The notes under the pieces are model-generated. The model ran no database searches, had not been told where the DNA came from, and saw only the letters and a program-made list of their open reading frames with translations. A stretch of 64,000 nucleotides of DNA from NCBI GenBank assembly GCA_030374765.1, contig JARGXX010000088.1:248001-312000 (forward strand), written 5' to 3'. Below, piece by piece: positions 8,363-54,595 of the stretch; the first letter of the stretch is position 1; every line of letters starts with the position of its first letter. Origin of the DNA: Agarophyton chilense (Eukaryota > Rhodophyta > Florideophyceae > Gracilariales > Gracilariaceae). Both the position numbers and the translations under genes were made by a program.

Positions 8363-9652
8363 CTAAAGGTTACTCGTCGGACGCAGCAAACCTCTTTCCA
8401 CTAGTATTTCACGTAGTTTCTCCCGAATTACCTCCCTGTCTGTTTCTAGATCTGGGGGCGCAATGGACTGAATACTTGAGTGCCAATCATCTAATTCAGT
8501 TTGTAGAGCGTTAATTTCGTGAGGATTGTAAACGTACCTATTTCCCGGCATTGAATCCATGACGTAATTGTTTAGAATCATCCCAACGGCAATGATGTTG
8601 ACACAGTCCTTCACGCTGTAATTGATTTCACCATTGCGAAATATCTTCCAACGACCTGTAAGAATGCCAAACGCTTGTTCCACATGAATTCGCATGGATG
8701 AAGTAAAAAAGTTGAGAGCGTCTTTGAAAGCGTCAATATCTTTCCCTGGGTACGGGGTTATACAAAAGTTAGATAACGTATAAGCCGCATCACACACCGC
8801 GTAGTAGCCCAAAGGAATGTTTCCCTCATCGAGGTGCCGCGCTAAAGGGGATATAGAAAAAGCCAATGCATCGTTAGTAGACCCCACTGCAAGAGCAGAG
8901 AAGTCAAGAAAGCGGTAGTCAGAGTCGACCAAAGCCTGCACAGGAATCGAGTAGTATCCTTTCCTGCAGTAAAAAGAACTTGGATTCTCATCATTTGGTG
9001 GCTTTCTGATTTTCACACAAAGCCCATCAAAAGCACCAATACAGCCAGAGAGAGGATTCGGAATTCTTCGCGAGGTCTTAAACCCAAATTCCAATTGACG
9101 CAGACCCTCTTCATTCTTTGGTAGACCCGGGAGCGACATTACATCTAGAACTGCAGTTATAAACTGCTTGAAGCACCTGCGGACACTAGTTTCACTTACA
9201 CCATATAGTACCATGAGATCGTGAAAACTAGCACCCGACATAATTCTTATTCCAATTGCTAGTTTGACGGGAATAGGTATTCTTATTCTGTCTCCAAATG
9301 TGTCGGGCTTCAAATGATTACTTCTCTCAATTATTTCTCGTAGTGCGTTCAAAGTGGTTCGAGACATTCGAAACGCCCTTGAAAAATCACTGTCAGATAG
9401 TATCGCGGTGACATCTTCAAAATTCGGCTTAATAGTAGGGAATAGAGAGGGCTTCGGGGTTTGTCGCTCGACCAGCTCCGATATTGTTAGTACAATAGCA
9501 GTCACATAAGCGTGAAAAGCAGTTACCGTTCGTGCTCGAAACACATTATTTGTTGCGATCCATTGTTTCCTGAAATTAACGAGAGAGTCTTGCTCAGACT
9601 CCGAATCTGAAGCGCTTATCTCAAGGACTACATCAGGTACCTCGTCGTCCAT
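8363..9652 (-). CDS. PIF/Harbinger-family transposase (DDE superfamily endonuclease), intact frame
   Basis: Cut-and-paste transposase of a DNA transposon, 429 residues in one open frame. The DDE_Tnp_4 pattern is complete: GAFDGLCVKI (Asp209), SFYCRKGYYSIPVQALVDSD, GSTNDALAF (Asp261), YYAVCDAAY (Asp288), TPYPG and RIHVEQAFGILTGRWKIF (Glu325). A helix-turn-helix-like segment, FHDLMVLYGVSETSVRRCF (about residues 143-161), precedes the core, as is usual. The N-terminus is acidic. An open frame with all catalytic positions kept suggests recent activity or domestication. I could not find paired terminal inverted repeats or TWA target duplications next to it, so autonomy of the element is not shown. 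Harbinger elements normally also encode a Myb-like partner. None is adjacent here. Confidence 0.9.
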   Translation of the reverse strand: MDDEVPDVVLEISASDSESEQDSLVNFRKQWIATNNVFRARTVTAFHAYVTAIVLTISELVERQTPKPSLFPTIKPNFEDVTAILSDSDFSRAFRMSRTTLNALREIIERSNHLKPDTFGDRIRIPIPVKLAIGIRIMSGASFHDLMVLYGVSETSVRRCFKQFITAVLDVMSLPGLPKNEEGLRQLEFGFKTSRRIPNPLSGCIGAFDGLCVKIRKPPNDENPSSFYCRKGYYSIPVQALVDSDYRFLDFSALAVGSTNDALAFSISPLARHLDEGNIPLGYYAVCDAAYTLSNFCITPYPGKDIDAFKDALNFFTSSMRIHVEQAFGILTGRWKIFRNGEINYSVKDCVNIIAVGMILNNYVMDSMPGNRYVYNPHEINALQTELDDWHSSIQSIAPPDLETDREVIREKLREILVERGLLRPTSNL

Positions 9653-10731: not shown

Positions 10732-10860
10732 GCTTCACAACTTTTGCCGCCACGTGTACTAGATTTGAGCAATGGCTTCACAACTTTTGCCGCCACGTGT
10801 ACTAGATTTGAGCAATGACTTCACAACTTTTGCCGCCACGTGTACTAGATTTGAGCAATG
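10732..10860. repeat. Tandem repeat, 3 copies of a 43-bp unit containing CACGTG
   Basis: Copies start at 10732, 10775 and 10818. They differ at one position only, and each carries the palindrome CACGTG within GCCGCCACGTGTAC. It ends about 110 bp before the gypsy LTR. Confidence 0.95.
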
Positions 10861-10969
10861 GGCAGCTTGCAAACGTTTGATTCAATAACACCAGGTCAAA
10901 GAGCAACGAGGCAAACCCACTCGATTTGCACCCTGACATTCTGCCGGTGCTATTTTATTTGTCACTTTT

Positions 10970-11809
10970 TGTAGGACAATGCCCCCAAGGGGGAAAACCT
11001 ACGAAGACGTCCGGATCTTCCTCTCACGAGGTAACCGGCGCGGTAGAGCCCTCCCAGGGATTGGCGCGCAATGCCGGGTGTAAACCGGAGCCAAACCGTC
11101 GCGAAGGGCGCAGGGAGGCTAAAACAAGCCGAGAATATCCGCCGAAGTGGTGCTTGCGTATCCTCTGAGGAGGCAAAACCCACGAGAGTGGCGAGCACTA
11201 CAGGTGTCAGTGCAAGCCGCAAAAGCGGGAATTGCCCAATGAAGGGGAGAAAAAGGAAAGGAAAATGGGAACGGAGGCAAGAGGGCGAGGTTGACCACGA
11301 GTCGCAAGAGAGGACTCGGGAATAGCCAGCACTGCCGGGTGTAGCAAACCGTATACACGGGCGGAACCACGAAAGTGGGAATAGATACCCAACACACGAA
11401 GGCTGCTTGAACGTCCAAGGGGGTTGGGAAGCCGTGCAACACGGGATATCCCTCCGTAAGGAGTTGTATATCCGCGCAGGCGGTTCGACCGAGAGCTAAG
11501 ATTTGGAAGACCAAGATCACCCTTGTTGGGGAGACTTTACTGGACCGGCGGCCGCGAGGCCGGCGGCCTAAGTACTGTAGTCACCGTAGAATAGAATAAA
11601 TAAAGTCTATCCTAAATAGCTAAATGTCCGTCTAAGAAAGGGGCCAATCTGGCGGCCACGTGTATGGCACCCCGTCCCGCCGGTGCATCACCGGCGTTCC
11701 GGCCATCGCCGTGAAAACGGATTACTCGTACTCATAACGAGGTTGCACGCCGGAGGCTCCGGAAAAATCTAAAGTCCCGAAAAACCTCCCTGGAGGACGT
11801 TGCTCTTCA
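10970..11809 (-). repeat. 3' LTR of gypsy copy A
   Basis: 840 bp, paired with 20196-21035. On the plus strand it begins TGTAGGACAATGCC and ends GTTGCTCTTCA. Confidence 0.95.
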
Positions 11810-11856
11810 TATCCTTCTCCTTAAGACAGGGCGAACACCTCGAAGAGGAAGTCGGC

Positions 11857-13632
11857 ATGACAGCTCGTCATGATAAGAGCGCGTCCGACACCGGGTCTCC
11901 GGAAACCAACACACCTTCACCAAGGATCCCACGCAAGCTCTTCGCATCCGATTCCAACCACAGCACACCAACACGCACCATGTCCAACCCCGACCGTCAT
12001 AACACATCCGCGACTCCCGCCCTTGGCGGTTCCACCGGCTTCCGGTCCGCGCCCCACCCTGGGGATGTTACCACCCTCGCGTACGAAGACCGCCGTATTG
12101 GCGCCCGCTTTCGCGGACAGGCGGACCCACCGCAGTGGCCGACCTACAACGCCCTTGTGGGTGCAAATCCGAGAACTCGGCATGGCTCCGCGATGTTGCG
12201 GTATGCGCCTTGGTTTCACCCATTGGCTGTCCGCGACGAGGAGTTGACCCAATCCTACACCGATAATTCGGAGATGCTCCCGGGCGACCTGCCCGGCGTG
12301 GTGACCATGTCCTGGGATTGGCGTAATCGCATCGCCATCCCGGTACACCACATACTCCGCCGACGCGGTGAATCCTCTGCGAAGGCTCAGGCCGCGCTTG
12401 TGCGGATCGCTTATCTCAGGCACCATCGGGCGCCTTTCGAGTTCCCGATACCGCCAAAGGTCGAAATCGACGTCCACCTTTACCGCACTCGCGGGGAAAT
12501 GTCGTACTGTGACCGTCTTAGCGGATTGGAAACCCTCGCTTGGAGGGGCACACCGATCGCTCGGCAAGAAGCCCTTTATTGGGCACGACCGATTCTTCGG
12601 GCAGAGTTCCGCTACCAACCGCGGCAGTCGCGCTCGAACTTCCTTCAGAACTTCATCCGCGATGAGCGGCGTTGGCGGGCCCGGACCGGGTATTTCGTAC
12701 CGTACCAGAACACGGAGATTGAGCGCATCGCGCCTGCTCACCGAAGTGGTCGGCACGTCATTCTCCCAGACTGGTGGTCCTCCTTGGAGGCGTGCTGGGG
12801 TTGCTTCATTGAGCTGCCCCCAGTCTTCACCTATGTAGGGTCGTCGTTCTTGAACGATCCCCAGTCGGGGTGGTGGTCCGTCGTGGTAAGCGAATGGGCC
12901 GTCCGCACTGCGGCTTTTATCCTCGCTGAGGCGTACGACCAATACCGATTGTGGTACGTGCCACCGCGTGTGCGGGCTGCGATCCGCCGTTTGGACATGC
13001 ACATCCCCCTCGGGGGCGAGGCGAACGAAGAAGAGATGCTGTGCCTCCTCGACTTTGTGGAGGGGGTCCAGTGGGATGAGATCCCGCTGGAGAACTCCCA
13101 ACGCATTCAACCGCGTCGCGGGTCTGGCCCCGGATTGGGGAGGAATACCGCGCTAGCGGGGGATTTCATCTTCTTCGACCCCTGGGATTACCATGAGATC
13201 AGCCGCGAGGAAGCGGAAGCCAACCGGCATGCGCCGCGTGAAGTCCCGGCCGACCACCCGCGAGGGTATGTCGACTCGAGCGACTATTACTGCGGCTATG
13301 CGGATGGTGACCCGATGGTCGACAACGAACCGGGGGATCCGGGTTACACTCCGATGGAGGATGACGAGTCCGGCGAGGCCGGAGAGGAGTCCGTTGAATA
13401 CGGTGGTGCGGCTCCATCCGGGGCTGCTGACGCCGTGCGAACGGATTCCTATCCGACTCCATCGGTGGCGGGCCCGCCCGCAACTGCCGCTGGCGCGGAG
13501 CAGGGCGAGGTCATCGCGCGCTTCCTTCGGGAGGTGGGGCTTCGCCCTTTCGAGATCTCGGGTGATGTGGCCGCCATGCGGGATGCCTTAGCCAACCGCC
13601 TGGGCGGGGGTCCACCTCGTGCGGAGGAATGA
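11857..13632 (+). CDS. Antisense open frame of gypsy copy A, unknown protein of ~591 residues
   Basis: This frame lies on the opposite strand to gag and pol, between the chromodomain and the 3' LTR. It starts (ATG at 11857) only 48 bp inside that LTR, so an outward antisense promoter in the LTR could drive it. Translation gives a Ser/Thr/Pro-rich N-terminus (MTARHDKSASDTGSPETN), a Trp/Arg/Tyr-rich middle (for example APWFHPLAVRDEEL and SWDWRNRIAIPVHHILRRRG), and an acidic C-terminal third rich in Glu, Asp and Gly, ending near FLREVGLRPFEISGDVAAMR. The open frame extends in frame to 11800. A partial version is kept in copy B (minus strand, 53692-53036) with few residue changes. I recognise no domain. 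Antisense genes are known in some plant gypsy elements and as HBZ in HTLV-1. Any shared role is inference. Confidence 0.6.
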   Translation: MTARHDKSASDTGSPETNTPSPRIPRKLFASDSNHSTPTRTMSNPDRHNTSATPALGGSTGFRSAPHPGDVTTLAYEDRRIGARFRGQADPPQWPTYNALVGANPRTRHGSAMLRYAPWFHPLAVRDEELTQSYTDNSEMLPGDLPGVVTMSWDWRNRIAIPVHHILRRRGESSAKAQAALVRIAYLRHHRAPFEFPIPPKVEIDVHLYRTRGEMSYCDRLSGLETLAWRGTPIARQEALYWARPILRAEFRYQPRQSRSNFLQNFIRDERRWRARTGYFVPYQNTEIERIAPAHRSGRHVILPDWWSSLEACWGCFIELPPVFTYVGSSFLNDPQSGWWSVVVSEWAVRTAAFILAEAYDQYRLWYVPPRVRAAIRRLDMHIPLGGEANEEEMLCLLDFVEGVQWDEIPLENSQRIQPRRGSGPGLGRNTALAGDFIFFDPWDYHEISREEAEANRHAPREVPADHPRGYVDSSDYYCGYADGDPMVDNEPGDPGYTPMEDDESGEAGEESVEYGGAAPSGAADAVRTDSYPTPSVAGPPATAAGAEQGEVIARFLREVGLRPFEISGDVAAMRDALANRLGGGPPRAEE

Positions 13633-14019
13633 CCGGAGCTTCCGGTAGAATGTAGGGCGGCGCCACTAGGGCGCTTTTTCCAGTAGTGAGAAATAAAAAG
13701 AAGAGGGTCGCCTTTCCGACGCCCTTTCCCAAGTCCGCTTCTTTCTTTCCGGGGTACCGGCCTTCTACCGGGGTTCCGGCGTTGCAGGGAACCAGCCTAG
13801 CTGGGAGTTCCGTGTTTAACGGTGGGCGCTTCGCGCGCGGACCAGGTAACTGGCACGACCACCAACGACGTTGGGATAGCGTGAGCGGTTGCTTCCTTCC
13901 CCGCGTTGGGGCATGGACGGAGATGGCGCGTGGCGCCACCAGCCATTCCATTCCGTGTTCACGGTTTATCCCTCTTGGGCGTTTACCAGCGTAGCTGGGA
14001 GTGCGGTCCCCGCAAGGCG

Positions 14020-14180
14020 GTGGTATCGCATTACCGCGGAGCGCGGGAGGTGCTCGATGGGCTCCGGGGTGTCCCACTCCGGCCCGTATCCGTACCAGCG
14101 GGTCCGGTACTGGAGCACCCCGTACTCATCGTAGCTATGTCCGACGATTCAGTCGAGAACGTACTCCTGCACGTAAACTT
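14020..14180 (-). other. Chromodomain-like segment of gypsy copy A
   Basis: On the minus strand the sequence encodes VYVQEYVLD, then HSYDEYGVLQYRTRWYGYG and DTPEPIEHLPRSAV. This matches the chromodomain pattern of aromatic cage, RW.GY and DT.EP..L. Gypsy chromodomains usually sit at the end of integrase and may direct insertion to marked chromatin. It is part of a broken element. Confidence 0.7.
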
Positions 14181-17100
14181 GCCGGCCTTGCCGGGTGGTG
14201 GTGACCCGAGCCTCAGCGCCGCGTGGTGCTGGGCTCGTCGTCGCCTGTTCCAGGTCACCCGGTTTTTCATTCCGCTCTGCGGTTGTTGCCGGGTTGCCGG
14301 GGCTGCCGTACCGCTTCGCGGAAGTTGCCGGCGCGGCCGGGTTGTGTTTCCGCTGGGCGGTAGGGGCTTTTCTGAAGTCCGCTCTTACCGCGAGTTTGCG
14401 GGTGTCCTTCCGTCTTGGTGACGGTTCGCCGGAGGCCTCCGCTTGATTTGCGGCATGCGGCGTTCCCGTTGGTGGGCAGTTTCCACTGTGCGGTGCGCCC
14501 TGGGCGGTGAGTGGTTCACTGTCCCGGCGATCCGCATCCGCGGGGTGGCTGTCAGCCAATGACCGGGATGCCGGGTGCCCATTGGTCCGATCTCCCGCCC
14601 GGGTTACGTGACCTTGAAGACGGGTGGTCGGGCCGTCGCAGACGGTTGGCTCCGATTGTTCGGCAAGGGAGGCGGTTTTCGACTTGTCGTTGCGTTCCTT
14701 TTCCCCCATGGGGTTCGTACCGTTCTCAACGGAGTGGCTCGCTAGACCTGCTTGCGCAGCGCCCGCCGGAGTACCGGTATCGACCGAAACGCTCGGTGTG
14801 CCACCGCGAATGTGCGGGGAGCCCTTAGTTGCTTCCACGCGATGCGGAGCGTCCGTAGGGTCTCGCTTCCCGGCTTCGGGTCATCGAGCGCCTTGGTCCC
14901 CCTTGCGGGGTTGCGTGGCGGTCGGGTTGACCGCCGCGTCCCGCGGGAGCGGATTGGCGTCCGGCGACGATGCCGGTTGCCCGCTCGGGGGCTTTGCCCG
15001 GGGTGTCCGGGTAAACTTCCGTTGCGACGGCGATGCTTCCGCGATTGAGCGGGTCCCCTCCCCCTCCTTAGACGGAGCGACGGGTGATGGTGGGCTAGCC
15101 GCATGGCGGGTATAAATACCGCTGCGCGGCGCCCGTAAGGGTAGCTGGCCGCGAGGGCCAGGTGTTTCCGGCATTGCCGGTGGTTCCGATAAAGTCGGTA
15201 TATCGGAGAGACCCCGTGAGGGGGGTGGTACCACGGCGGGGCTTCTAAGCCATGGTGCCACGGGGACGGGTGTTTCATTCTCGCGCGCTGCGAGTAGCTC
15301 ATCCATTTCCATGGTGTCTTCCCCGGTTTCGGGCCAATTTGACTCCGTCGGTGTTTCCCCTTCCAAGGTAAAGCACGGGATCTCGTCGACCTCCGGGTCG
15401 GCAAGTGCTTCACCTGTCGTAGGTAATCGAGAGAGGGCGTCTGCTTGAGTGTTATGGACACCCTTTTTGTAGACGACCTTGAAGTCGAATTCCGCCAAGC
15501 GGAGGCGCCACCGCATTAAGCGGCCAGAAGGATCTGCGATGTTCAGCAGCCACCTCAACGAGGCATGGTCCGTGTACACGGTGAAATGAACGCCCATGAG
15601 GTATGGGCGCAGAGTGGATAGCGCTCAGACCACTGCGAGGCACTCCTTCTCGGAGACCGAGTAGTTGCGCTCGTGGAAGTTCAGCGTGCGGGACCAATAT
15701 CCAATTGGTTTGCGTTCCCCCTCGGGGGTGGTTTGGAACAGTGCGCAGCCCACCTGGTGGTCGCTGGCGTCGGTGTCGATGAAGTAGGGAAGCCCAGATT
15801 TGGGCAAGGATAGGATGGGAGCTGTCGTAACTGCCTTAATCAAGGAGCGAAAAGATTCCGACTGATCGGTGGTAAATGGCGCAAGCTTCGGTGGCTGGCC
15901 CTTCCGCAGTAGCGCGTTTAGCGGAGCGGCGATATCCGAGAAACTCGGTATAAACCGTCGATAGACGTTGACCAGACCTAAAAAGGATCGGAGCTCCGTT
16001 TGAGTACGGGGCTCCTTTGCCTCGCAGAGGGACTTGATACGAACTTGTTCGATCATTAACCGTCCTGGACGGATGACGTGCCCGAGATACTTCACCGTGT
16101 CGGTGAAGAACTCGCACTTCCTCAACTTGAGGGTTATTCCTGCGTCTCGCAGTACGGTCATCACGTCCCGCACGTGGGTCAGGTGATCGTCGAGGTTTCT
16201 GGAAAAGACAATGATGTTGTCCAAGTAGACAAGGCACGTGCGCCACTTGAAACGCGACATCAGTATGTCTATTGCCCTTTGAAAGGTGGCCGGTGCATTG
16301 GTTAAACCAAACGGCATCCGCTTGAAGCGGTAGGAACCCGAGTGGCAAACAAACGCGGTTTTGTCTCGGTCCTCTTCCCGGACTGGGACTTGCCAGTAGC
16401 CCCAGTTAGCATCCAGAGCCGTAAACACGGTAGCGTCCCCGAGCGAGTCTATACACTCGTCCATGCGCGGAATCGGGTAGGTGTCCCTCACGGTGACGGT
16501 ATTGAGGCGGCGGTAGTCAACGCAAAACCGCCAAGTGCCGTCAGCCTTGAGGGCCAGCACCACCGGTGAAGTCCAAGGAGATTGGGCGGGCTCGATGACT
16601 CCAGCATGGAGCATCTTGTCCACCTGAAATTCTTCCTCCTCCCGAGCTTTCGGTCCCGCCCTGTAAGGGGGTTGTGCAACCGGACTTGCGTCCGGTAGCA
16701 AGTCTATCCGATGTTCGGTTGTATTGATCTCACCCAGTGAGCCGTCCCACATTGTGGTAAACTCGCGTAGCATTCCGCGTAAGCGGTCCCGGTGTGAGAC
16801 CGGTACATGACTCAGGTCCAGGTCCTCGAGGGCCTTGATCGGGTCTATCTTAACGTAGCTCGTAGGCTGTGCCCTGGTGTCAGGTGTGGGAACCGACGAG
16901 GTCGGAAATGCATCCGTCTTGACGGTTTTATCGAGCGCCAACTGCTGTGCCTCCCCGGAGGTTTCTGCACCGGATACCGGGAGACCATCCTCGCTAATGG
17001 GGGTTATCCCGAGTACTTCGGCAGCCGTCACCTTTGTAGGGAGCATCGCGAGCGGGTGCGGCGTCACAGACCCAATGACTTGGTTCTTTGCCAGCGTCTG

Positions 17101-20100
17101 GGGTGCCTTCCCCAGGTTGGCAACCAACACCCTGAAAGGGGAATTCGGCGTGACTTGCACGATTCCGTTCGCAACGGTTAACTGAAATTTCTCGTACAAC
17201 GAGCGCAAGGGCTGAACAACCCGAAGACCGTGTTGACGGGAATTGACTGAAACCATAACCTGGCTCTCCGGGGGTATGGTGACTGACGAGGCAACGCGTA
17301 GCTTGGTAGAATCCCGGTTCGCCGGTGTGGGTTCCTGCGCAGCAGGTAGAGGAACGTGTTTCCTCGATGCCCGCTTCAGCGGTTGACGAACAATGGGGAC
17401 GGTCGATCCATCCTCAAGTTCCACCTGCTTAAGGCGTGGGCGGATGGCGTCGACAAACCTGTCGCAGTAGTCACATCCCAGTATAACTGGCGCGGCCAGC
17501 GAGCGGCACACAATAAAAGTTAGTTTAACCACCATCCGCCCTAGCCTGACGACCAGGTCGATCACACCAGCCGTTTTCAACGGGTTGTTATTGGCGTCCG
17601 ACACGTCGGGTACCGTTTCAGAACGGATGAGTGACCGCAATGGCGGGGGTAAAACCGATTCCACAGTAAAGTTCGGCCCAGCACCTGTATCCAGGACAGT
17701 GAGATGTCTCACCATAAACTGCGTGTGCAGACCAAGGTCAGCGTAAACCTTGTAGTTACGCTTGGCCATTACCAAGACTCTATCCGGGATCCGGTTATTT
17801 CTAATCCGTATCCACGGTCGACGCAAAACACCGAGGTGTTTAGAGCCCGGGTCTGCGGTGTCCTTCCTTGTCAGGGTTTTCACCGGGGAGCGAGGCATCG
17901 GCGCCTCGGGCGTAGTCAGCCTCAACTCTGAGGACGCCTCTCCCGAAGGGGAGACTCCCTCTATTCTTTTCCCTGTACAGGGTCCTGGTCAGGCGAAGGC
18001 CCGACTTCCTCGGCAACGAGTGCATGATTCCGTTGCACGGTAGCTACCGCAGGAGCGGGTGGAGGTCCACCAGCGTGGTTTGGCGCTGGTGCAGCGCGTG
18101 CCGGCTGAGCCGGTTTGTACCGAGAATTCAGAGTGTGAGCCAATGCGTTGGGGAAGTCCGTCTTCGCGCGGAGATATGACGTGAGTGGCACGGAGCCCTT
18201 CTCCCGCGGGGAGAGGGCTTCGTAATTATCCACCCCTCGCGCCATATCGCGTAGTGATAAAAGGCATTGCGGGGAGGTGTGCCCGCGCTCGTAGCACAAG
18301 TGGCACACCAACGTCACTCCCGAGTTTCGCGGTACGGCATTCCGAGCATCGGTGTATCTTCCGGGCTTCCGGTTTCCAACCCATCCAGGGCGCTGACTTC
18401 GTGTCATTCCGTTCGAGTACGGCATACGGGGGGCCGGAGTGCGGCGGTCATTAAGATAAAAGACCTGCCCGTTCTCCGTGTCCCTTGCGGTTGAGTCAAC
18501 CGAGCCATCCGTCGTAGACGGTAATTCCGTTGTCGGGATAGATAAACCATCGTGATGGATGACATTCATATTGTCATAACCCTGTTTGGGGATGCCATCC
18601 GTCGCAAATGACGGTGAAGAAGAGTCTGACTCAAGCAGCAATGCTTTAGCAGCCTTCGACTGGGTTCCCAGATTGCGTGCACGTAGTGCATCTCCTTCTG
18701 CGCGGGCAAACTGTACGAGTTCAAGGTAAGTCACCTTCGGCTCTTGTTCCCTGTAACGGGCGACAAGAGTCTTGATGGCTGGATCCAAGCCATCAAGGAA
18801 CATCGTACAGCGTTCCCCAGCGGGGTATACATTACCACAACGGTGGAAAGCCTTATTCAGGCGTACCGAGTAATCGGTCTCGAGCTCGCTGGAGCGTTGT
18901 CAAGTGTCTCGCAAAGCGAGTATCGCCGCTTGTATCGCGGTGTTGGTTGCGTAGGAACGCAGGAGGTACTGCACGGCCTCGGGCCAGCAGGTCACACCTC
19001 CTTCGGAGGCTCGCGACGAGCCCCGAACCGACAAAAACTGATCTTCAGCGACACCCCGTAGAAAGTAGGGTAGCGCCACGTAGGCTTGTCCTTCGTTCAT
19101 TCCGAGTATATCGGCTTCCGCTACAAAGCGGTGTAGGAAATCCAAGACCAGAATTGGATCATCCCCAGTAAATGACTGGTTACGAAGTGAAAGCTGCATC
19201 CGCTTGATGCAGTCTTTCACTTTACCCGTGTCACGCGGTGTCCGACCTAAAGATGAATCTTCTAGCCGGTAATACCGGTAGGACAGGAGTGTCCTGGACA
19301 GAGGGTTGGTGGGCTTCAAGGGTTTGAGGCCCGGATGTCGCCGACCCTTGGGGCGCGACCGGATGGCCCCGTAGGTGGCAGAGGACCGCTTTGAGCGGGA
19401 AGAGCGCCCATAACTATCCTGTGGGTCATCGCTCACCGACGAATCGGAACTCTCCGAGTCACTCGGTTTACCGTCCGACTCAGATGATGAGTCGGACGGG
19501 GGTCCGTGCTTACGGTTAGAATCCCGGTTCTTCCGGCTCTTCCGGTTCCGCGACTGGGTCTCTCGATGAGAGACAACCGGTCTAGCCGCGTTCGCGGGGG
19601 AGGTTAACGTCCTCTCGACCGACTCAAGTCGGCTTTGGAGACGCTCGAAGCGATTCTCCATACCTTCTGTGAAGAAAGACGAAGCGCCAAAACACTCGAG
19701 TAGTGTATTGACGTCCGACCGCAATACGCGGATATCCTCGGCTAACTCACTTGTAGGGGGGTTAGCGAGGCTTCCTCGTAAAGAGGTGAACTCCCTCGAG
19801 AGGGTATTGTGAGCAGCCCGCAGGGAGCGGAGCTGCTCTTCCAAGCGTACAATCCGCGCTTGGTCGACCAACCGCGGAGGCGGAGAAACCACCGTTGCGA
19901 CGGTCGTTACCCCGGAATCGGGCTGCGGGTCTTCAGTGCCGGTGACCGGTATCTCCCGGGAAGCCGGTGTTGGAGCCAGGGCCTGTGGAACATCAGTGCC
20001 CCTGGCATCACCGCTTTGGCGGGAACGGCTGCGTGTTTCAGGACGCTCCATGCTAGGCGGTTTTCTTGGCATTGGTCACACCGTCTCGACGGAAGAATTG

Positions 20101-20195: not shown

Positions 20196-21035
20196 TGTGG
20201 GACAATGCCCCCAAGGGGGAAAACCTACGAAGACGTCCGGATCTTCCTTTCACGAGGTAACCGGCGCGGTAGAGCCCTCCCAGGGATCGGCGCGCAATGC
20301 CGGGTGTAAGCCGGAGCCGAACTGTCGCGACGGGCGCGGGGAGGCTGAAAGAAGCCGAGAATATCCGCTGGAGCGGTGCTTGCGTATCCTCTGAGGAGGC
20401 AAAACCCACGAGAGTGGCAAGCACGACAGGTGTCAGTGCGAGCCGCAAAAGCGGGAATTGCCCAATGAAGGGGAGAAAAAGGGAAGGAAAATGGGAACGG
20501 AGGCAAGAGGGCGAGGTTGACCACGAGTCGCAAGAGGGGACTCGGGAATAGCCGGCACTGCCGGGTGTAGCAAACCGTATACACGGGCGGAACCACGAAA
20601 GTGGGAATAGATACCCAACACACGAAGGCTGCTTGAACGTCCAAGGGGGTTGGGAAGCCGTGCACCACGGGATATCCCTCCGTAAGGAGTTGTATATCCG
20701 CGCAGGCGGTTCGACCCAGAGCCAAGATCTGGAAGACCAAGATCACCCTTGTTGGGGAGACTTTACTGGACCGGCGGCCGCGAGGCCGGCGGCCTAAGTA
20801 CTGTAGTCACCGTAGAATAGAATAAATAAAGTCTATCCTAAATAGCTAAATGTCCGTCTAAGAAAGGGGCCAATCTGGCGGCCACGTGTATGGCACCCGG
20901 TCCCGCCGGTGCATCACCGACGTTCCCGGTGCCACTGTGAAAGCGGATTACTCCTACTCATAACGAGGTTGCACGCCGGAGGCTCCGGAAAAAACTTAAG
21001 TCCCCAAAGACCTCCCTGGAGGACGTTGCTCTTCA
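20196..21035 (-). repeat. 5' LTR of gypsy copy A
   Basis: 840 bp, about 96-97 percent identical by eye to 10970-11809. A primer-site-like TGG motif lies three bases inside its inner end. Confidence 0.95.
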
Positions 21036-33118: not shown

Positions 33119-33429
33119 TGTAACGCCTGCGGCGCAAATGCGCCCGACCCGATTGGGAAGATAGTTTAGATATTATGCATCGACCTCATTGGACACTGTA
33201 CAGCCTCGAGCCTCCACTCTGCTCGAGGCTCGCCCAGCTTGGGCGGCCTATTTAGTCCCTTAGGTCTCTCCCTCGTTTGAGTCGACGAGGTATCGAACTC
33301 ACCCGATCCTCTCTAGCCGACCCACTGTGCTTGAGTAAACTCCACCCTGTCTGTCTGTTTTCAGTCTTCGGTACTGTACCAACCGTCAGGACTCTATCTA
33401 TACTACACGGCCACGCCGGGCAGACTATA
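33119..33429 (+). repeat. 5' LTR of gypsy element C
   Basis: 311 bp, begins TGTAACGCCTG and ends GCAGACTATA. It contains a GCTCGAGGC-type inverted repeat. Confidence 0.95.
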
Positions 33430-36400
33430 GTGATCATTTCAGATTACTGCCAAGTGTGGTTCGAGTACCACAAGACCGTTTTGGACGTTCAAGACACCGA
33501 TCATTCAAGACGTCCAACATGGAGGACACCACGTCTTCTTCGTCGACCGCCAGGACTGCTCGCACTGCAGGCCCTAGGGTCAATCGTTTCACCATGGCTG
33601 TCGAGCAGCCGTTCCTCGCCCGCATGGACCCGGAGTCTATCCACGTGTTTCTCCGCAAGTACGACGCGTACTGTCGCAAACTGACCGCAAGGACTTCGCA
33701 GCTCGTCCAAGAGGGGACAGTCTCGTTCGACTCCATCCGTCCTGTTGGTCTGACCTACTGTGTCGACGCCGAACAGCTCGAGTCCGCCGTGGACTGTGGC
33801 TGGATTGCCGACTGCGACGACGTCAAGACCTTAACGGACGACCAGTTACGGACCTTTTCGGACGCCGAGTCCGAGGAGTCTAGTGACGCTGTCACGGAAC
33901 AGGAACTCGGCCAAATGGTCCTGTCCCTCATCAAGATGGACATGTCTGTCCAGTCCGCGGAGGGTCGAATGAAACTCCTGTTCATGGAGTACCGCTCGCT
34001 CCTCCGGACCAATGGCCTCAAGTGGGTCATCGAGAACAACCCCAAGGCGGCCATCCGCCACGTCCTTTCGGTTATCAAGCCTCAGCAACTCAGGACTAGG
34101 CTCGAGCAGGACATCAAGTTCTCAAAGGCCAAGCTCAAGAGCGACTTCAGTGGCTTTCAGGCGCACGCCATCGGACTATCGCAGGCCTTCGAGCGCCTCG
34201 ACACCGGCCCCCCGAAGTCTCGCAAGTCTGAAGGGAGCTCCGGAAAGACCACAACGGACTACAAGAAGTCGGCCGCCGGCAATGATAACAAGGCCGGCGG
34301 CAAGACCAAAAAGGACAAAGTCAAGACGAAGCGCCAGCCGCCTTCTCCGTGTCCGCTACCGGCCTGTGATGGCAAGAAGCTCATGCATTGGGCCAATGAC
34401 TGCGAGAACTCAACGGACGCAGAGAAAAAGGCCTTCAAGGACAAAGTTGCCGCCTCAAATTCTAGTGATGGTCCAGCGAGGTCGACGCGTTCCCAGACCT
34501 CGTCGGCAGGGGCCGCTTCATCGTCGGCATCCAACACCGTCTGACGCTTGCAGCGCAAGTCCGACGCGTCCGCACGCGACGACGACTCGCCGTCGTGCAA
34601 GATGACCATTATGGACGGCAAGGCTTCCCAAGATGTGACGGGACGCTGTGACGACGGCAGCGACGAGAATATCGCGTCGTCCAAACTGGCCATCCATGCT
34701 GCGGGCCAAGGTATCGGCAAGATTAACCGCATCGACACGGTGCGAGTCACAGACGCGCTGACCAAAGAGGACGAAGCGCCAACGTACACGTTCTCGCGTG
34801 CTTGGTCTGTGCCTGTCACGGTCTTACACCTCAACTCAGGTCGTCTCGCTCTCAAGAATATCCGCTTCCTTGTGGCGGATGACAACGTGACCTGTGAGGA
34901 CTTGCTGATTGGCCTACCTGTACTGCGCCATCTGCGCGTGGATACGAAGACCCTACTGGAGGACAACATGACGTCCCTCGACGGGACGGATTGCAGTCCA
35001 GATGGACCACCGGGGACCAATGGTGGGCAAGTGAGTCGGATTATGATTGCCCGACTCAACTGCGTGCGCGACGACCACGTGGACTCTTCCGCCCCGCTCG
35101 ACCCGGTGCGCCCCAAGGTCAACTACTACAGCGCACGCGCTGAAGACGATATGTTCCCGGATCCGTCCTTTCTCGAACCTATCGATGGGGACCAGCACGA
35201 GAACATCAAGACCGCAGTGGACGACATGAAGACAGTCGCCCAAGACAACGGACTGCCGGAAGAAGACCGCCCAAAAATGGAAACGCAGCTTGCTGACCAT
35301 ATGTACATATTCCGCACGTCATTCTCCTCGGGGCCTCCCGCTGTAATCCCGCGCTCAAGGTTGCTCTGACCCACGACGCGAAGCCCGTCAAGGTCCGTCT
35401 GCGCAACTATTCTCAAGACCAAAGGGACTTCATGGACAAGTTCGTCAAGGACCTCGTCCACCATGGTCTCGCGTACGCGAACCCGACGTCCAAATAGGCC
35501 TGCGCGCCCCTCCTTGTGCCGAAGCCAGGCGTCCGCTTCCGCTTTACAGTGGACCTGCGTCCGGTCAACAAGTTCACCGTCCGGCATCAGTACCCGATGC
35601 CGAATCTGGAGCACGAGCTGACCAAACTGGGAACGTCGAGATATTTCGCGACCTTCGACCTCTCGCACGGCTATTGGCAGCTGCCATTATCCGAAGAGTC
35701 ACAGGAGTGCCAGTCATTCATCACACCAGACGGCATTTTCTCCCCGACGCGTGTCCTCCACGGGAAGACCAATGCAGTGACTGACCTGCAATCCGCCTTC
35801 GCGGGTATCATACCCGCTGACCTCAAGGCCAACATGTTGTCCTGGTTGGACGATATCCTCATTCATGCACCGACCGTTTTCGGCCTGCTAAAGTCCATTC
35901 GGTCATTCTTTGTGGTCTGTGCGGACCACAATATCAAGCTCCACCCGGCGAAATGCATCCTATTCGCCAAGGAGATACGCTGGTGTGGCCGTCTCGTGTC
36001 CAGTTCTGGTCTTCGCTACGATCCGCACCGCCTCGACGGCCTGCTGTCCATGCAGCCGCCGACCACCGGGGCCAACCTGCAGCAGTTCGTCTGCGCCTTA
36101 CAGTGGGTCAAGCAGGGCATCCCCAGCTTCTCCGAACTCGTGGCACCGCTGCACGACTTCATGGAACGCGTGTATGACCATGTGGCCAAGCGCACGAAGA
36201 TCGCAGTTGCTCGTGTCCTACTCGTGGACCTTGGATGGGACAAGACCGAATTGGACGCCTTAGAGGCATTCAAGAACGCTCTCGAGCGTCAGGTCACGCT
36301 CGCGCACCGCGACGTCGGCCAACGCTTGTGCGTCTACACCGATGCGTCCGATACGGCCTGGTCAGAAATTGTGACCCAAGTCCCCTTCCCGGACATCGTC

Positions 36401-38289
36401 AAGCCCCACAAGTACCAACGGCATTCGCCGTTGGCGTTCCTCTCGGGACGCTTCAATAAAACCCAGATGGGTTTGTCCGTCCTCGAGAAGGAAGCGTACG
36501 CCGTCCTGACCTCTTTGGACCGTATGCACTGGATCATCGCGACGCCTGAAGGATTCGACCTTTACACGTACCATAATAACCTCATCTTCCTATTCGACCC
36601 GCTGTCGGTGGCCCCCGACATTTTGCAGACGTCGCTGCGCAAAGTCCTACGTTGGGCCGTGCGGCTGAGCATGTACCGCTACATATGCTACCAAATCAAG
36701 GGCGACGACAACGTCTGGGCCGATCTTCTGACCCGATGGTCTACGGTTCCGGCCATTGTGCGCCGCCTCGTGCGCGTCCCGGAGCTTCCCTCGTCGTCCA
36801 GCACGGACTTCGACTGGCCTACACGGACTACACTCGCCGCGGTTCAGCAGGCGCACGATGCATCACGCCCTGCGGACCCCGTCCTCACTGACCAACTTTG
36901 GACTCTTCCTTCTGGTTCCATCTGGGTCCCGGATGACGCCGCTGACATCCAGCTCCGGTTGTGCATCATCGCCCATACTGGTCCTTCGGGTCATCGCGGC
37001 GTTAGCGCCACGGAGCAGGCGCTCCTCAAGTCCTTTCATTAGTCTACGCTCAAGGCGGACGTCCGCGCCTTCGTCCGTGCTTGTATCCACTGTCTATCGA
37101 CAGTCGGAGGGGAGAAAATCCCACGTCCTTTCGGCCCGGCCGTCCACGGCACGAAAGCGAACGACCTGCTCCAGTTCGACTACATCGAGCTCGGAGCCAC
37201 AGCGCACGGCGACAAGTACGCACTCATGTTGCGTGACGACCATTCGGACTACAAGTGGTTCTTCCCGTTCCCTGACACCTCCGCCAAGAACGCCGCCACT
37301 GCCATCATCGAGTGGTGTGCAGTCTTCGGCGTCCCTAATGGTCTCATGTCCGATGGCCCCACTCATTTCAAGAATGAAACTGTCTGTTTGGTCTCAAAGG
37401 GTCTCAAGGTGCCGCACCACTTCACCCTTTCCTACTGTCCGTGGAGCAACGGGGCAGTAGAGCGTCTGGGTCGCGAGTTGCTTCGCGTCCTAAGGTCGGT
37501 CCTTTCGGAGCTTCAGATGCGCACGACCGAATGGCCTGACCTCATCCCCATCGTCCAATCGGTCCTCAACAATTCCCCTTTTCCGCAGCGTGGGAATGTG
37601 TGTCCAATCACGGCCTTCATGGGCAAAGAACCGACGCCACCGGTTCAGACCTTCATGCGAACATCACTGTCCACACCGGTCACGTTGACAGAGGCGCAAG
37701 CGGAACGCACCCTCAACGTACAGAAGCTCATCGAGCTCCGAGACGAGCTTCATCCGCTCGTACAGTCCAATTTGGTCAAACATCGCAAGCAAGCAATAGC
37801 CGCTGCGTCGCGTGGAAAGCACCCTCACTTCACTGAGGGTGACTATGTCCTCGTGGCCCGCACCGAATATGGTGCTGGAGACAAGCTCGTCCTTCGCTGG
37901 CGCGGTCCTCGCAGGGTCATCAAGGCGCTGAGCGACTACTTTTATCAAGTTTGAAGACCTCCGGAATAGCCAAATGGATGACGTACACTCGACGCGTCTC
38001 AAGTTCTACCGCGACGACGCGATTGACGAGGCAGCCATTCTGTCTCATGTCCTACAGTCCGAGTCGGGCATGCCTGTCGCCCGCCTAATGGGGCTCAAGG
38101 ACAGTCCCGATGGTCTCAAAGTCCACGTCCGCTGGAAGGGACTGGATAACTCCGAGGACACTGTCGAGCCGCTTGAACGTGTGTTCGAAGACGTCCCGAT
38201 GATGGTCGAGCGCCTACTTAAGCGCAAGGCCACCCCAGCCCATCTGGTCCAGAAGGCCAACGCTCTCCTTTCTATTTGAAAGAGGGGAG

Positions 38290-38600
38290 TGTAACGCCTG
38301 CTGCGCATATGCGCCCGACCCGATTGGGAAGATAGTTTAGATATTATGCATCGACCTCATTGGACACTGTACAGCCTCGAGCCTCCACTCTGCTCGAGGC
38401 TCGCCCAGCTTGGGCGGCCTATTTAGTCCTTTAGGACTCTCCCTCGTTTGAGTCGACGAGGTATCGAACTCACCCGATCCTCTCTAGCCGACCCACTGTG
38501 CTTGAGTAAACTCCACCCTGTCTGTCTGTTTTCAGTCTTCGGTACTGTACCGACAGTCAGGACTCTATCTATACTGCACTGCCACGCCGGGCAGACTATA
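38290..38600 (+). repeat. 3' LTR of gypsy element C
   Basis: 311 bp, matches 33119-33429 with eight differences. It is followed at once by the target duplication AGTTC. Confidence 0.95.
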
Positions 38601-47927: not shown

Positions 47928-48793
47928 TGAAGAGCAACGTCCTCCAGGGAGGTTTTTGGGGACTTAAGTTTTTTCCGGAGCCTCCGGCGTGCAACCTCGT
48001 TATGAGTAGGAGTAATCCGCTTTCACGGCGACACCCGGAACGCCGGTGATGCACCGGCGGGACCAGGTGCCATACACGTGGCCGCAGCGCCCGCGCGACA
48101 CGTGGCCGCCAGATTGGCCCCTTTTGTTAGACCGACAATTAGCTATTTAGGATAGACTTTATTTATTGTATTCTACGGTGACTACAGTACTTAGGCCGCC
48201 GGCCTCGCGGCCGCCGGTCCAGTAAAGTCTCCCCAACAAGGGTGATCTTGGTCTTCCAGATCTTGGCTCTGGGTCGAACCGCCTGCGCGGATATACAACT
48301 CCTTACGGAGGGATTTCCCGTGGTGCACGGCTTCCCAACCCCCATGGACGTTCAAGCAGCCTTCGTGTGTTGGGTATCTATTCCCACTTTCGTGGTTCCG
48401 CCCGTGTATACGGTTTGGTACACCCGGCAGTGCCGGCTATTCCCGAGTCCCCTCTTGCGACTCGTGGTCAACCTCGCCCTCTTGCCTCCGTTCCCATTTT
48501 CCTTCCCTTTTCCTCCCCTTCATTGGGCAATTCCCGCTCTTGCGGCTCGCACTGACACCTGTCGTGCTCGCCACTCTCGTGGGTTTTGCCTCCTCAGAGG
48601 ATACGCAAGCACCGCAATACGCGGATATTCTCGGCTTCTTTCAGCCTCCCTGCGCCCGTCGCGACGGTTCGGCTCCGGCTTACACCCGGCATTGCGCGCC
48701 GATCTCTGGGAGGGCTTTACCGCGCCGGTTACCTCGTGAGAGGAAGATCCGGACGTCTTCGTAGGTTTTCCCCCTTGGGGGCATTGTCCTACA
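47928..48793 (+). repeat. 5' LTR of gypsy copy B
   Basis: 866 bp, begins TGAAGAGCAACG and ends GCATTGTCCTACA. Confidence 0.95.
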
Positions 48794-51700
48794 AATTGGT
48801 CTCCCGACTTAGAAGTCAAGACCGCTTGTGTCCTCTCTGAGGTTGTTTTCCGTTTAACGGGTTTTCTCCGGTCTCACCGGTTTGCTTTCTATTCTTCCGT
48901 CGAGACGGTGTGGCCAATGCCAAGGAAACCGCCTAGCATGGAGCGTCCTGCAACACGCAGCCGTTCCCGCCAAAGCGGTGACGCCAGGGGCACTGATGTT
49001 CCACAGGCCCTGGCTCCAACACCGGATTCCCGGGAGATACCGGTCACCGGCACTGAAGACCCGCAGCCCGATTCCGGGTTAACGACCGTCGCAACGGTGG
49101 TTTCTCCGCCTCCGCGGTTGGTCGACCAAGCGCGGGTTGTACGCTTGGAAGAGCAGCTCCGCTCCCTGCGGGCTGCTCACAATACCCTCTCGAGGGAGTT
49201 CACCTCTTTACGAGGAAGCCTCGCTAACCCTCCTACAAGTGAGTTAGACGAGGATATCCGCGTATTGCGGTCGGACGTCAATACGCTACTCGAGTGTTCT
49301 GGCGCTCCGTCTTCCTTCGCAGAAGGCATGGAGAATCGCTTCAAGCGTCTCCGAAGCCGACTTTAGTCGGTCGAGAGGACGTTAACCTCGCCCGGGAACG
49401 CGGCTAGACCGGTTGTCTCTCATCGAGAGACTCAGTCGCGGAACCGGAAGAGCCGGAAGAACCGGGATTCTAACCGTAAGCACGGACACCCGCCCAACTC
49501 ATCATCTGAGTCGGACGGTAAACCGAGTGACTCGGAGAGTTCCGATTCGTCGGTGAGCGATGACCCACAAGATCGTTATGGGCGCTCTTCCCGCTCAAAG
49601 AGGTCCTCTGCCACCTACGGGGCCATCCGGTCGCGCCCCAAGGGTCGGCGACATCCGGGCCTCAAACCCTTGAAGCCCACCAACCCTCTGTACAGGACAC
49701 TCCTGTCCTACCGGTATTACCGGCTAGAAGATTCCTCTTTAGGTCGGACACCGCGTGACACGGGTAAAGTGAAAGACTGCATCAAGCGGATGCAGCTTTC
49801 ACTTCGTAACCAGTCGTTTACTGGGGATGATCCAATTCTGGTCTTGGATTTCCTACACCGCTTTGTAGCGGAAGCCGATATACTCGGAATGAACGAAGGA
49901 CAAGCCTACGTGGCGCTACCCTACTTTCTACGGGGTGTCGCTGAAGATCAGTTTTTGTCGGTTCGGGGCTTGTCGCGAGCCTCCGAAGGAGGTGTGACCT
50001 GCTGGCCCGAGGCCGTGCAGTACCTCCTGCGTTCCTACGCAACCAACTCCGCGATAAAAGCGGCAATACTCGCTTTGCGAGTCACTCGACAACGCTCCGG
50101 CGAGCTCGAGACTGATTACTCGGTACGCCTGAATAAGGCGTTCCACCGTTGTGGTAATGTATACCCCGCTGGGGAACGCTGTACGATGTTCATTGATGGC
50201 TTGGATCCAGCCATCAAGACTCTTGTCGCCCGTTACAGGGAACAAGAGCCGAACGTGACCTACCTTGAACTCGTACAGTTTGCCCGCGCAGAGGGAGATG
50301 CACTACGTGCAAGCAATCCGGGAACCCGGTCGAAGGCCGCTAAAGCATTGCTGCTTGAGTCAGACTCTTCTTCACCGTCATTTGCGACGGATGGCATCCC
50401 CAAACAGGGTTATGACAATATGAATGTCATCCATCACGATGGTTTATCTATTCCGACAACGGAATTACCGTCTACGACGGATGGCTCGGTTTATTCAAAC
50501 GCAAGGGACACGGAGAACGGGCAGGTCTTCTATCTTAATGACCGCCGCACTCCGGCCCCCCGTATGCCGTACTCAAACGGAATGACACGAAGTCAGCGCC
50601 CTGGATGGGTTGGAAACCGGGAACCCGGAAGATACACCGATGCTCGGAATGCCGTACCGCAAAACGCGGGAGGGACGTTGGTGTGCCACTTGTGCTACGA
50701 GCGCGGGCACACCTCCCCGCAATGCCTTTTATCGCTACGCGATATGACGCAAGTGGTGGATAATTACGAAGCCCTCTCCCCGGAGGAGAAGGGCTCCGTG
50801 CCACTCACGTCATATCTCCGCGCGAAGACGGACTTCCCCAACGCATTGGCTCACACTCCTAATTCTCGGTACAAACCGGCTCAGCCGGCACGCGCCACAC
50901 CAGCGCCAAACCACGCTGGTGGATCTCAACCCGCTCCTGCGGTAGCTACCGTGCAACGAAATCATGCAGTCGTTGCCGAGGAAGTCGGGCCTTCGCCCGA
51001 CCAGGACCCTGTACAGGGAAAAGAATAGAGGGAGTCTCCCCTTCGGGAGAGGCGTCCTCAGAGTTGAGGCTGACGACGCCCGAGGCGCCGATGCCTCGCT
51101 CCCCGGTGCAAATCCTGACAAGGAAGGACACCGCAGAGGCAGACTCTAAACACCTCGGTGTGTTGCGTCGACCCTGGATACGGATTAGAAATAACCGGAT
51201 CCCGGATAGAGTCTTGGTAATGCCCAAGCGTAACTACAAGGTTTACGCTGACCTTGGTCTGCACACGCAGTTTATGGTGAGACATCTCACTGTCCTGGAT
51301 ACAGGTGCTGGGCCGAACTATATTGTGGAATCGGTTTTACCCCCGCCATTGCGGTCACTCATCCGTTCTGAAACGGTACCCGACGTGTCGGACGCCAATA
51401 ACAACCCGTTGAAAACGGCTGGTGTGATCGACCTTGTCGTCAGGCTAGGGCTGATGGTGGTTAAACTAACTTTTATTGTGTGCCACTCGCTGGCCGCGCC
51501 AGTTATACTGGGATGTGACTACTGCGACAGGTTTGTCGACGCCATCCGCCCACGCCTTAAGCAGGTGGAACTTGAGGACGGATCGACCGTCCCCATTGTT
51601 CGTCAACCGCTGAAGCGGGCATCGAGGAAACACGTTCCTACACCTGCTGCGCAGAAACCCACACCGGCGAACCGAGATTCTACGAAGGTACGCGTTGCCT

Positions 51701-53035
51701 CGTCAGTAACCATACCCCCGGAGAGCCAGGTTATGGTTTCAGTCAATTCCCGTCAACACGGTCTTCGGGTTGTTCAGCCCTTGCCCTCGTTGTACGAGAA
51801 ATTTCAGTTAACCGTTGCGAACGGAATCGTGCAAGTCACGCCGAATTCCCCTTTCAGGTTGTGGGTTGCCAACCTGGGGAAGGCTCCCCAGACGCTGGCA
51901 AAGAACCAAGTCATTGGGTCTGTGACGCCGCACCCGCTAGCGATGCTCCCTACAAAGGTGACGGCTGCCGAAGTACTCGGGATAACTCCCTCTACCGAGG
52001 ATGGTCTCCCGGTATCCGGTGCAGAAACCTCCGGGGAGGCACAGCAGTTGGCGCTCGATAAAACCGTCAAGACGGATGCATTTCCGACCTCGTCGGTTCC
52101 CACACCTGACACCAGGACACAGCCTACGAGCTACGATAAGATAGACCCGATCAAGACCCTCAAGGACCTGGACTTGAGTCATGTACCGGTCTCACACCGG
52201 GACCGCTTACGCGGAATGCTACGCGAGTTTACCACAATGTGGGACGGCTCACTGGGTGAGATCAATACAACCGAACATCGGATAGACTTGCTACCGGACG
52301 CACGTCCGGTTGCACAACCCCCTTACAGGGCGGGACCGAAAGCTCGGGAGGAGGAAGAATTTCAGGTGGACAAGATACTCCGTGCTGGAGTCATCGAGCC
52401 CGCCCAATCTCCTTGGGCTTCACCGGTGGTGCTGGCCCTCAAGGCTGACGGCACGTGGGGGTTTTGCGTTGACTACCGCCGCCTCAATGCCGTCACCGTG
52501 AGGGACACCTACCCGATCCCGCGCATGGACGAGAGTATAGACTCGCTCGGGGACGCTACGGTGTTTACGGCTCTGGATGCTAACTGGGGCTACTGGCAAG
52601 TCCCAGTCCGGGAAGAGGACTGAGACAAAACCGCGTTTGTTTGCCACTCGGGTTCCTACCGCTTCAAGCGGATGCCGTTTGGTTTAACCAATGCACCGGC
52701 CACCTTTCAAAGGGCAAAAGACATACTGATGTCGCGTTTCAAGTGGCGCACGTGCCTTGTCTACTTGGACGACATCATTGTCTTTTCCAGAAACCTGGAC
52801 GATCACCTGACCCACGTGCGGGACGTGATGACCGTACTGCGAGACGCAGGAATAACCCTCAAGTTGAGGAAGTGCGAGTTCTTCACCGACACGGTAAAGT
52901 ATCTCGGGCACGTCATCCGTCCAGGACGGTTAATGATCGAACAACTTCGTATCAAGTCCCTCTGTGAGGCGAAGGAGCCCCGTACTCAAACGGAGCTCCG
53001 ATCCTTTTTAGGTCTGGTCAACGTCTATCGACGGT

Positions 53036-53692
53036 TTATACCGAGTTTCTCGGATATCGCCGCTTCGCTAAACGCGCTACGAATTCGACCTCTGGCGGTA
53101 TCGGGAACTCGAAAGGCGCCCGATGGTGCCTGAGATAAGCAATCCGCACAAGCGCGGCTTGAGCCTCCGCAGAGGATTCACCGCGTCGCCGGAGTATGTG
53201 GTGTACCGGGATGGCGATACGATTACGCCAATCCCAGGACAGGGTCACCACGCCGGGCAGGTCGCCCGGGAGCATCTCCGAGTTATCGGTGTAGGATTGA
53301 ATCAAATCCTCGTCGCGGACAGCCAATGGGTGAAACCAAGGCGCATACCGCAACCTCGCGGAGCCATGCCGAGTTCTCGGATTCACACCCACAAGGGCGT
53401 CGTAGGTCGGCCACTGCGGTGGGTCCCCCTGTCCGCGAAAGCGGGCGCCAATACGGCGGTCTTCGTACGCGAGGTTGGTAATATCCCCAGGATGGGGCGC
53501 GGACCGGAAGCCGGTGGAACCGCCAAGGGCGGGAGTCGCGGATGTGTTATGACGGTCGGGGTTGGACATGGTGCGTGTTGGTGTGCTGTGGTTGGAATCG
53601 GATGCGGAGAGCGTGCGTGGGATCCTTGGTGAAGGTGTGTTGGTTTCCGGAGACCCGGTGTCGGACGCGCTCTTATCATGACGAGCTGCCAT
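53036..53692 (-). other. Partial antisense open frame of gypsy copy B
   Basis: Reads MAARHDKSASDTGSPETN onward and matches the first ~200 residues of the copy A antisense frame with few replacements, including SWDWRNRIAIPVHHILRRRG. It starts 37 bp inside the 3' LTR, on the strand opposite to gag and pol. It is an incomplete copy in a broken element. Confidence 0.75.
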
Positions 53693-53729
53693 GCCGACTT
53701 CCTCTTCGAGGTGTTCGCCCTGTCTTAAG

Positions 53730-54595
53730 TGAAGAGCAACGTCCTCCAGGGAGGTTTTTGGGGACTTAAGTTTTTTTCGGAGCCTCCGGCGTGCAACCTC
53801 GTTATGAGTAGGAGTAATCCGCTTTCACGGCGACACCCGGAACGCCGGTGATGCACCGGCGGGACCAGGTGCCATACACGTGGCCGCAGCGCCCGCGCGA
53901 CACGTGGCCGCCAGATTGGTTCCCTTTGTTAGACGGACAATTAGCTATTTAGGATAGACTTTATTTATTGTATTCTACGGTGACTACAGTACTTAGGCCG
54001 CCGGCCTCGCGGCCGCCGGTCCAGTAAAGTCTCCCCAACAAGGGTGATCTTGGTCTTCCAGATCTTGGCTCTGGGTCGAACCGCCTGCGCGGATATACAA
54101 CTCCTTACGGAGGGATTTCCCGTGGTGCACGGCTTCCCAACCCCCATGGACGTTCAAGTAGCCTTCGTGTGTTGGGTATCTATTCCCAATTTCGTGGTTC
54201 CGCCCGTGTATACGGTTTGGTACACCCGGCAGTGCCGGCTATTCCCGAGTCCCCTCTTGCGACTCGTGGTCAACCTCGCCCTCTTGCCTCCGTTCCCATT
54301 TTCCTTCCCTTTTCCTCCCCTTCATTGGGCAATTCCCGCTCTTGCGGCTCGCACTGACACCTGTCGTGCTCGCCACTCTCGTGGGTTTTGCCTCCTCAGA
54401 GAATACGCAAGCACCGCAATACGAGGATATTCTCGGCTTCTTTCAGCCTCCCTGCGCCCGTCGCGACGGTTCGGCTCCGGCTTACACCCGGCATTGCGCG
54501 CCGATCCCTGGGAGGGCTCTACCGCGCCGGTTACCTCGTGAGAGGAAGATCCGGACGTCTTCGTAGGTTTTCCCCCTTGGGGCCATTGCCCTACA
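53730..54595 (+). repeat. 3' LTR of gypsy copy B
   Basis: 866 bp, about 98.5 percent identical by eye to 47928-48793. Confidence 0.95.

Follow-up and report, generated by a model that had tools for sequence, protein, structure and literature searches.

Structure of element A and its antisense open reading frame

The window, a 64,000-nucleotide stretch of the genome of Agarophyton chilense (contig JARGXX010000088.1, positions 248,001 to 312,000), contains an LTR retrotransposon (element A) that has its gag and pol genes on the minus strand and a long open reading frame (aORF) on the plus strand. The features of element A are, in coordinates of the window:

10970..11809, minus strand: 3' LTR, the presumed site of an antisense promoter
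11810..11822, minus strand: purine-rich tract beside the 3' LTR, a probable PPT
11857..13632, plus strand: aORF, antisense open frame of 591 codons (ATG at 11857, TGA ending at 13632), recognized by codon usage and periodicity
11920..13587, minus strand: in-phase frame opposite the aORF, with one stop, judged to be a shadow
13692..13697, plus strand: AATAAA, 59 bases past the aORF stop, the sole AATAAA or ATTAAA on this strand between the LTR and 15700
13969..14148, minus strand: chromodomain with which the pol frame ends (E 3e-4 for Pfam Chromo, a score that falls below the curated cut-off)
14152..15480, minus strand: linker of the pol frame, rich in proline and serine and with an approximate start, at the place expected for an integrase
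15625..17988, minus strand: pol, comprising a protease motif (found by eye), reverse transcriptase and the greater part of RNase H, with an in-frame TGA interrupting it
17964..20075, minus strand: gag, with a CCHC-like motif (found by eye; only E 0.17 in Pfam) and one in-frame TGA
20196..21035, minus strand: 5' LTR, 95.5% identical to the 3' LTR

The aORF is antisense to both gag and pol and lies between the 3' LTR and the chromodomain with which pol ends (at about 13969), with a stop-to-stop extent of 11773-13629 (619 codons). The frame that an earlier note on this DNA had reported, some 591 codons long and on the strand opposite to gag and pol, is borne out by our analysis in length, strand and position. 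The note had placed its start just inside the 3' LTR, which is right as to the closeness of the LTR and wrong as to its interior, the ATG lying 47 bases into the internal region, past the LTR edge at 11809. The predicted product has a Ser/Thr/Pro-rich start, followed by an aromatic-rich middle, an acidic stretch and a short last part. An AATAAA was found at most 400 bases downstream of only two of the eight other genes examined, so that the motif is not a regular companion of genes here and its presence past the aORF argues weakly for a transcript end.

The LTRs of element A have TG..CA ends, and together with gag and a gypsy-type reverse transcriptase-RNase H they identify it as a Ty3/gypsy element; the reverse transcriptase was recognized by Pfam at E 2e-34 and the RNase H end matched the Ty3 polyprotein at 3e-8 in a search of PDB sequences. 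Gag and pol are interrupted by four in-frame stops, all of them TGA (18900-18902, 15625-15627, 14881-14883 and 14149-14151), and this decayed copy need not be active. By eye, no clear target-site duplication is present (CTTTT at 10965-10969 vs. CAAAT at 21036-21040), so that element A may be a recombinant, or its flanks may have diverged. A 43-base unit is present three times in tandem just outside the 3' LTR of element A (10732-10861).

Search for an integrase in element A

A second gypsy element in the window, element C, served as a control:

33119..38600, plus strand: element C, whose LTRs are 97.4% identical and which has reverse transcriptase, RNase H, integrase and chromodomain

Among PDB sequences the chromodomain of element A matched several chromodomain proteins, the best of these at E 0.0028, while the top row (E 5e-4) was a molecule named E8; against the chromodomain of element C it gave a 45-residue match at E 0.01. 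With chromoviruses, element A shares a gypsy-type reverse transcriptase and RNase H and a pol that ends in a chromodomain, and it differs from them in that no integrase was detected between RNase H and the chromodomain. When the 56 stop-to-stop pieces of 11810-15700 (at least 40 residues, both strands) were compared with Pfam, no integrase family matched any of them at E up to 1, and none matched gag or the rest of pol in Pfam. Pfam also missed the integrase of element C, our positive control, which in PDB was matched at 4e-13 (foamy virus integrase); the negative Pfam result for element A is consequently weak on its own, and a PDB sequence search was added for this reason. For the second part of the linker this search returned nothing, and for the first part three RNase H/polyprotein rows and one unrelated row. 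The integrase stretch of element C, compared directly with element A, gave one chance-level match (E 0.14, plus strand). In both parts of the linker its own frame was the best of six in four of four codon models. Pfam matches besides RNase H and Chromo, each in a single piece other than the aORF, were DUF2625 (E 0.0051), MDMPI_C (0.095), DUF4186 (0.17), NtrZ (0.18) and DUF4817 (0.39), which were taken as chance among 56 pieces. A hidden integrase was looked for and not found, with Pfam and PDB both negative between RNase H and the chromodomain, and we conclude that pol of element A appears to have no recognizable integrase in this interval, as read from the sequence of one copy (copy B, described below, is deleted there).

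Coding potential of the antisense frame

An explanation that has to be weighed, and that we consider unlikely, is that the aORF is not a gene and has stayed open through its base composition or because it shadows a sense frame downstream of pol. The earlier note had likewise cautioned that GC-rich DNA can keep a long frame open by chance. Chance appears unlikely: in Markov sequences modelled on 11810-15700, at least 591 open codons occurred in 0, 0.2 and 0.27% of 1500 sequences (orders 1, 2 and 3), and with the whole element as the model the figures were 0 and 0.25% of 800 sequences for orders 1 and 2. The frame also has a three-base periodicity of the coding type (39.7 chi2 per kb, p 3e-13), similar to that of pol (42.7), and not one of 1000 stop-free Markov sequences of order 1 attained this value. 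The nine controls that we presumed to be non-coding (three LTRs of element A and copy B, the D LTR, the spacer between pol and the aORF, and four intergenic stretches) ranged from 1.4 to 18.1, eight of them not significant and the ninth (30-32 kb) nominally so at p 0.033. Periodicity is uneven within the aORF, with 27.2 in the first third and 100.8 in the last, and in the first part of gag it is weak (12.3).

Codon usage was compared under four models, trained on the gag and pol of element A (model A), on element C (model C), on a Harbinger transposase together with four genes presumed to be the host's (model H), and on A and C combined (A+C). The transposase frame (8363-9652) matches DDE_Tnp_4 at E 1e-25 and is of the Harbinger type. 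The gene content of the window looks eukaryotic and includes, for example, a tryptophan 2,3-dioxygenase, a Toprim/DnaB-type helicase as in organelles and a Myb protein. When each of the 12 training genes was left out of its own training set, the presumed true frame was named in 11 (A), 8 (C), 9 (H) and 10 (A+C) of them, and models A, C and A+C were correct for all seven element genes. All four models ranked the plus-strand frame of the aORF as the best of six, and none preferred the sense frame. The log-odds of the aORF frame over the in-phase opposite frame were +33, +63 and +36, with all three bootstrap intervals above zero; on parts of the frame, intervals dip below zero in one of three models each for 11857-12468, for the rest of the aORF and for the part kept in copy B.

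Element C provides a point in favour of the non-coding explanation, as it too has antisense frames opposite its genes, one of 287 codons (34262-35122) and one of 186 codons (35129-35686), both of which are presumably due to chance. Two of the four codon models put the shorter first, with small margins, although it is presumably spurious. The longer was ranked first by none, and its log-odds over its own in-phase opposite frame were nevertheless positive in two of three models, from which it follows that the log-odds test separates the strands within one pair of frames and does not measure coding as such.

The in-phase frame on the sense strand is itself long (411 codons stop to stop), and between 11920 and 13587 it has one stop in 556 codons vs. 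8 to 13 expected under four codon-usage models, a figure that is flattering since the limits of this interval are set by stops. Over the whole span of the aORF the sense frame has three stops vs. none in the plus frame. Codons of the Leu and Ser boxes ending in A are rare across the aORF (3/70 vs. 37/276 in the other boxes, p 0.02), a depletion found similarly in set H and not in the gag and pol of element A or in element C. A sense-strand gene opposite the aORF was rejected, as this frame was preferred by none of the codon models, had no Pfam match and gave one chance-level match in PDB (E 1.1). We judge the opposite frame to be a shadow; coding on both strands of 11920-13587, a bold reading, is only weakly hinted at by the rarity of these codons ending in A.

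Copy B and the test for selection

A second copy of the same family is present in the window:

47928..54595, plus strand: copy B, with an internal deletion (LTRs 98.5% identical)
53080..53692, minus strand: the 204 codons of the aORF that survive in copy B (11857-12469 of element A corresponds to 53692-53080 of copy B)

The deletion corresponds to 12470-15908 of element A, begins just before RNase H and has removed RNase H, the linker, the chromodomain and all but the first third of the aORF, so that the aORF is present in both family copies in the window, one of them truncated. Copy B also lacks ten bases of the purine-rich tract beside the 3' LTR (11810-11819 of element A; 53729/53730 of copy B) and retains the ATG; a frame upstream of the ATG would consequently be shifted. 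Copy B sits within one of two inverted related LTR-like stretches (46240-47119; 47760-47927 plus 54596-55312; 93-96% identical), and by eye its insertion probably produced a 5-base target duplication (GGGAT/GGTAT).

The observation that copy B keeps a part of about 200 residues was confirmed, as the first 204 codons are there with 15 replacements and no stop, while its use as an argument for coding fails. The two copies differ at 23 of 613 positions in the aORF (15 replacement and 8 silent changes), distributed 7/7/9 over the codon positions, with 6.6 silent changes expected without selection and an omega of about 0.77. For gag, omega was 0.74 and 0.64 and for pol 0.67, none of these being significantly uneven over codon positions; the three parts of gag and pol pooled have a slight excess of silent changes (47 vs. 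35.8 expected). The LTR pairs differ by 4.5% (element A) and 1.5% (copy B), which predicts a divergence between the copies of about 3% after insertion, and the observed divergence is 2.69-3.95% in gag and pol, 3.75% in the aORF and 3.1-5.5% in the LTRs, close to this neutral prediction. This pair was rejected as a test of selection. The aORF could be under the slight constraint seen for gag and pol and could equally be under none, the comparison being nearly powerless with 23 changes; the want of clear purifying selection nonetheless counts on the side of the aORF not being a gene.

Homology of the predicted product

No Pfam family matched the aORF product at E up to 1, in agreement with the earlier note, which had recognized no domain in it, and searches of NCBIfam, PHROGs, PDB sequences and phages gave no match. 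Pattern searches with six short peptides, which reach close relatives only, found nothing in viral_contigs and 31 stretches in genome_contigs, none of them a relative; with pol as bait there were three stretches in viral_contigs and nine in genome_contigs, again none of them a relative. AlphaFold2, run on the single aORF sequence, gave no usable fold (mean pLDDT 33.3, pTM 0.18). The lack of homologues in the seven collections searched would also be expected of a frame that is not a gene.

The comparison with HBZ of HTLV-1 that had been drawn holds for the layout, both being antisense genes near a 3' LTR, and does not extend to the domain. HBZ has a bZIP domain, and none was found in the aORF product, which had no Pfam match at E up to 1.

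Comparison with known antisense genes of LTR elements

Antisense open reading frames between pol and the 3' LTR (aORF-3R) are described for Grande (gene23), RIRE2, Retand, PvRetro13 and Boty of Botrytis; they are described mainly in flowering plants, mostly have no clear homologues and are of unknown function (PMC7264820). The Grande product is found in the nucleus, and a promoter upstream of its frame drives transcription (PMC7264820). In Retand, a TRP28 protein is encoded at this position in 97% of the clusters of recently active elements (PMC11963269). The likeness to plant gypsy antisense genes pointed out in the earlier note thus fits in position and orientation: the aORF has in common with aORF-3R genes that it belongs to an LTR element, lies between pol and the 3' LTR, is antisense to gag and pol and, like most of them, has no homologues (PMC7264820). 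It differs in that the element here bears a chromodomain and no integrase was found, and no shared domain was detected: TRP28 is a Transposase_28 protein (PF04195), and the aORF has no PF04195 match at E up to 1. Retand, moreover, belongs to a non-chromovirus lineage (PMC11963269), unlike the chromodomain-bearing element A. No chromodomain element with such an antisense gene and without an integrase was found among the literature matches listed (titles and abstract openings), which does not prove its absence from print, and in the text of PMC5348765 and PMC2864245 covered by a term search the word 'antisense' does not occur.

LTR elements are known to capture genes (PMC7264820), and the aORF might be a host or foreign gene, or a part of another element, that was captured backwards and travels with the element as a passenger, playing no part in it. 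Its GC content at third positions (0.70) exceeds that of gag and pol (0.56-0.65), as might be expected of a captured sequence, but the linker part of pol is similarly rich in GC. No relative was found in Pfam, NCBIfam, PHROGs or PDB, and the aORF is common to copies A and B, so that the family probably already carried it when they inserted; a passenger therefore seems improbable to us. We attach still less weight to the explanation that the antisense RNA and not a protein is what matters, by pairing with the genomic RNA and dampening the element. Antisense transcripts of LTR elements have in general been proposed to act in this way (PMC7264820), but this leaves a frame of 591 codons with periodicity and codon usage of the coding type unexplained.

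Proposed function and significance

From its length beyond chance, its periodicity and its codon usage we judge the aORF to be a gene, at least in the recent ancestor of the element; its position and orientation and the presence of a part of it in a second copy are established as well. On balance we favour the explanation that it is a real protein gene, now or in the recent ancestor of the element: an antisense accessory gene of a chromodomain-bearing Ty3/gypsy element, with a putative LTR-driven transcript. Transcription would start in the 3' LTR, run through the aORF and end near the AATAAA at 13692. The protein may assist the element as an accessory factor. A part in regulation or in a nuclear step would be likeliest, in line with proposals made for the antisense proteins of Grande and Retand. 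A bolder proposal, to which we give little credence, is that the family lost its own integrase but retains the chromodomain, carried on a disordered tail of pol, with the antisense protein aiding integration or targeting, for example by recruiting the integrase of another element.

The aORF is probably a variant of a known but unexplained kind of antisense gene, and the pol beside it is unusual. Several LTR elements have an antisense gene at this place, between pol and the 3' LTR (PMC7264820). A chromodomain family with an antisense gene and apparently without an integrase would, if true, add another case, which would help in asking what such genes contribute, be it regulation, entry into the nucleus or assistance in integration.
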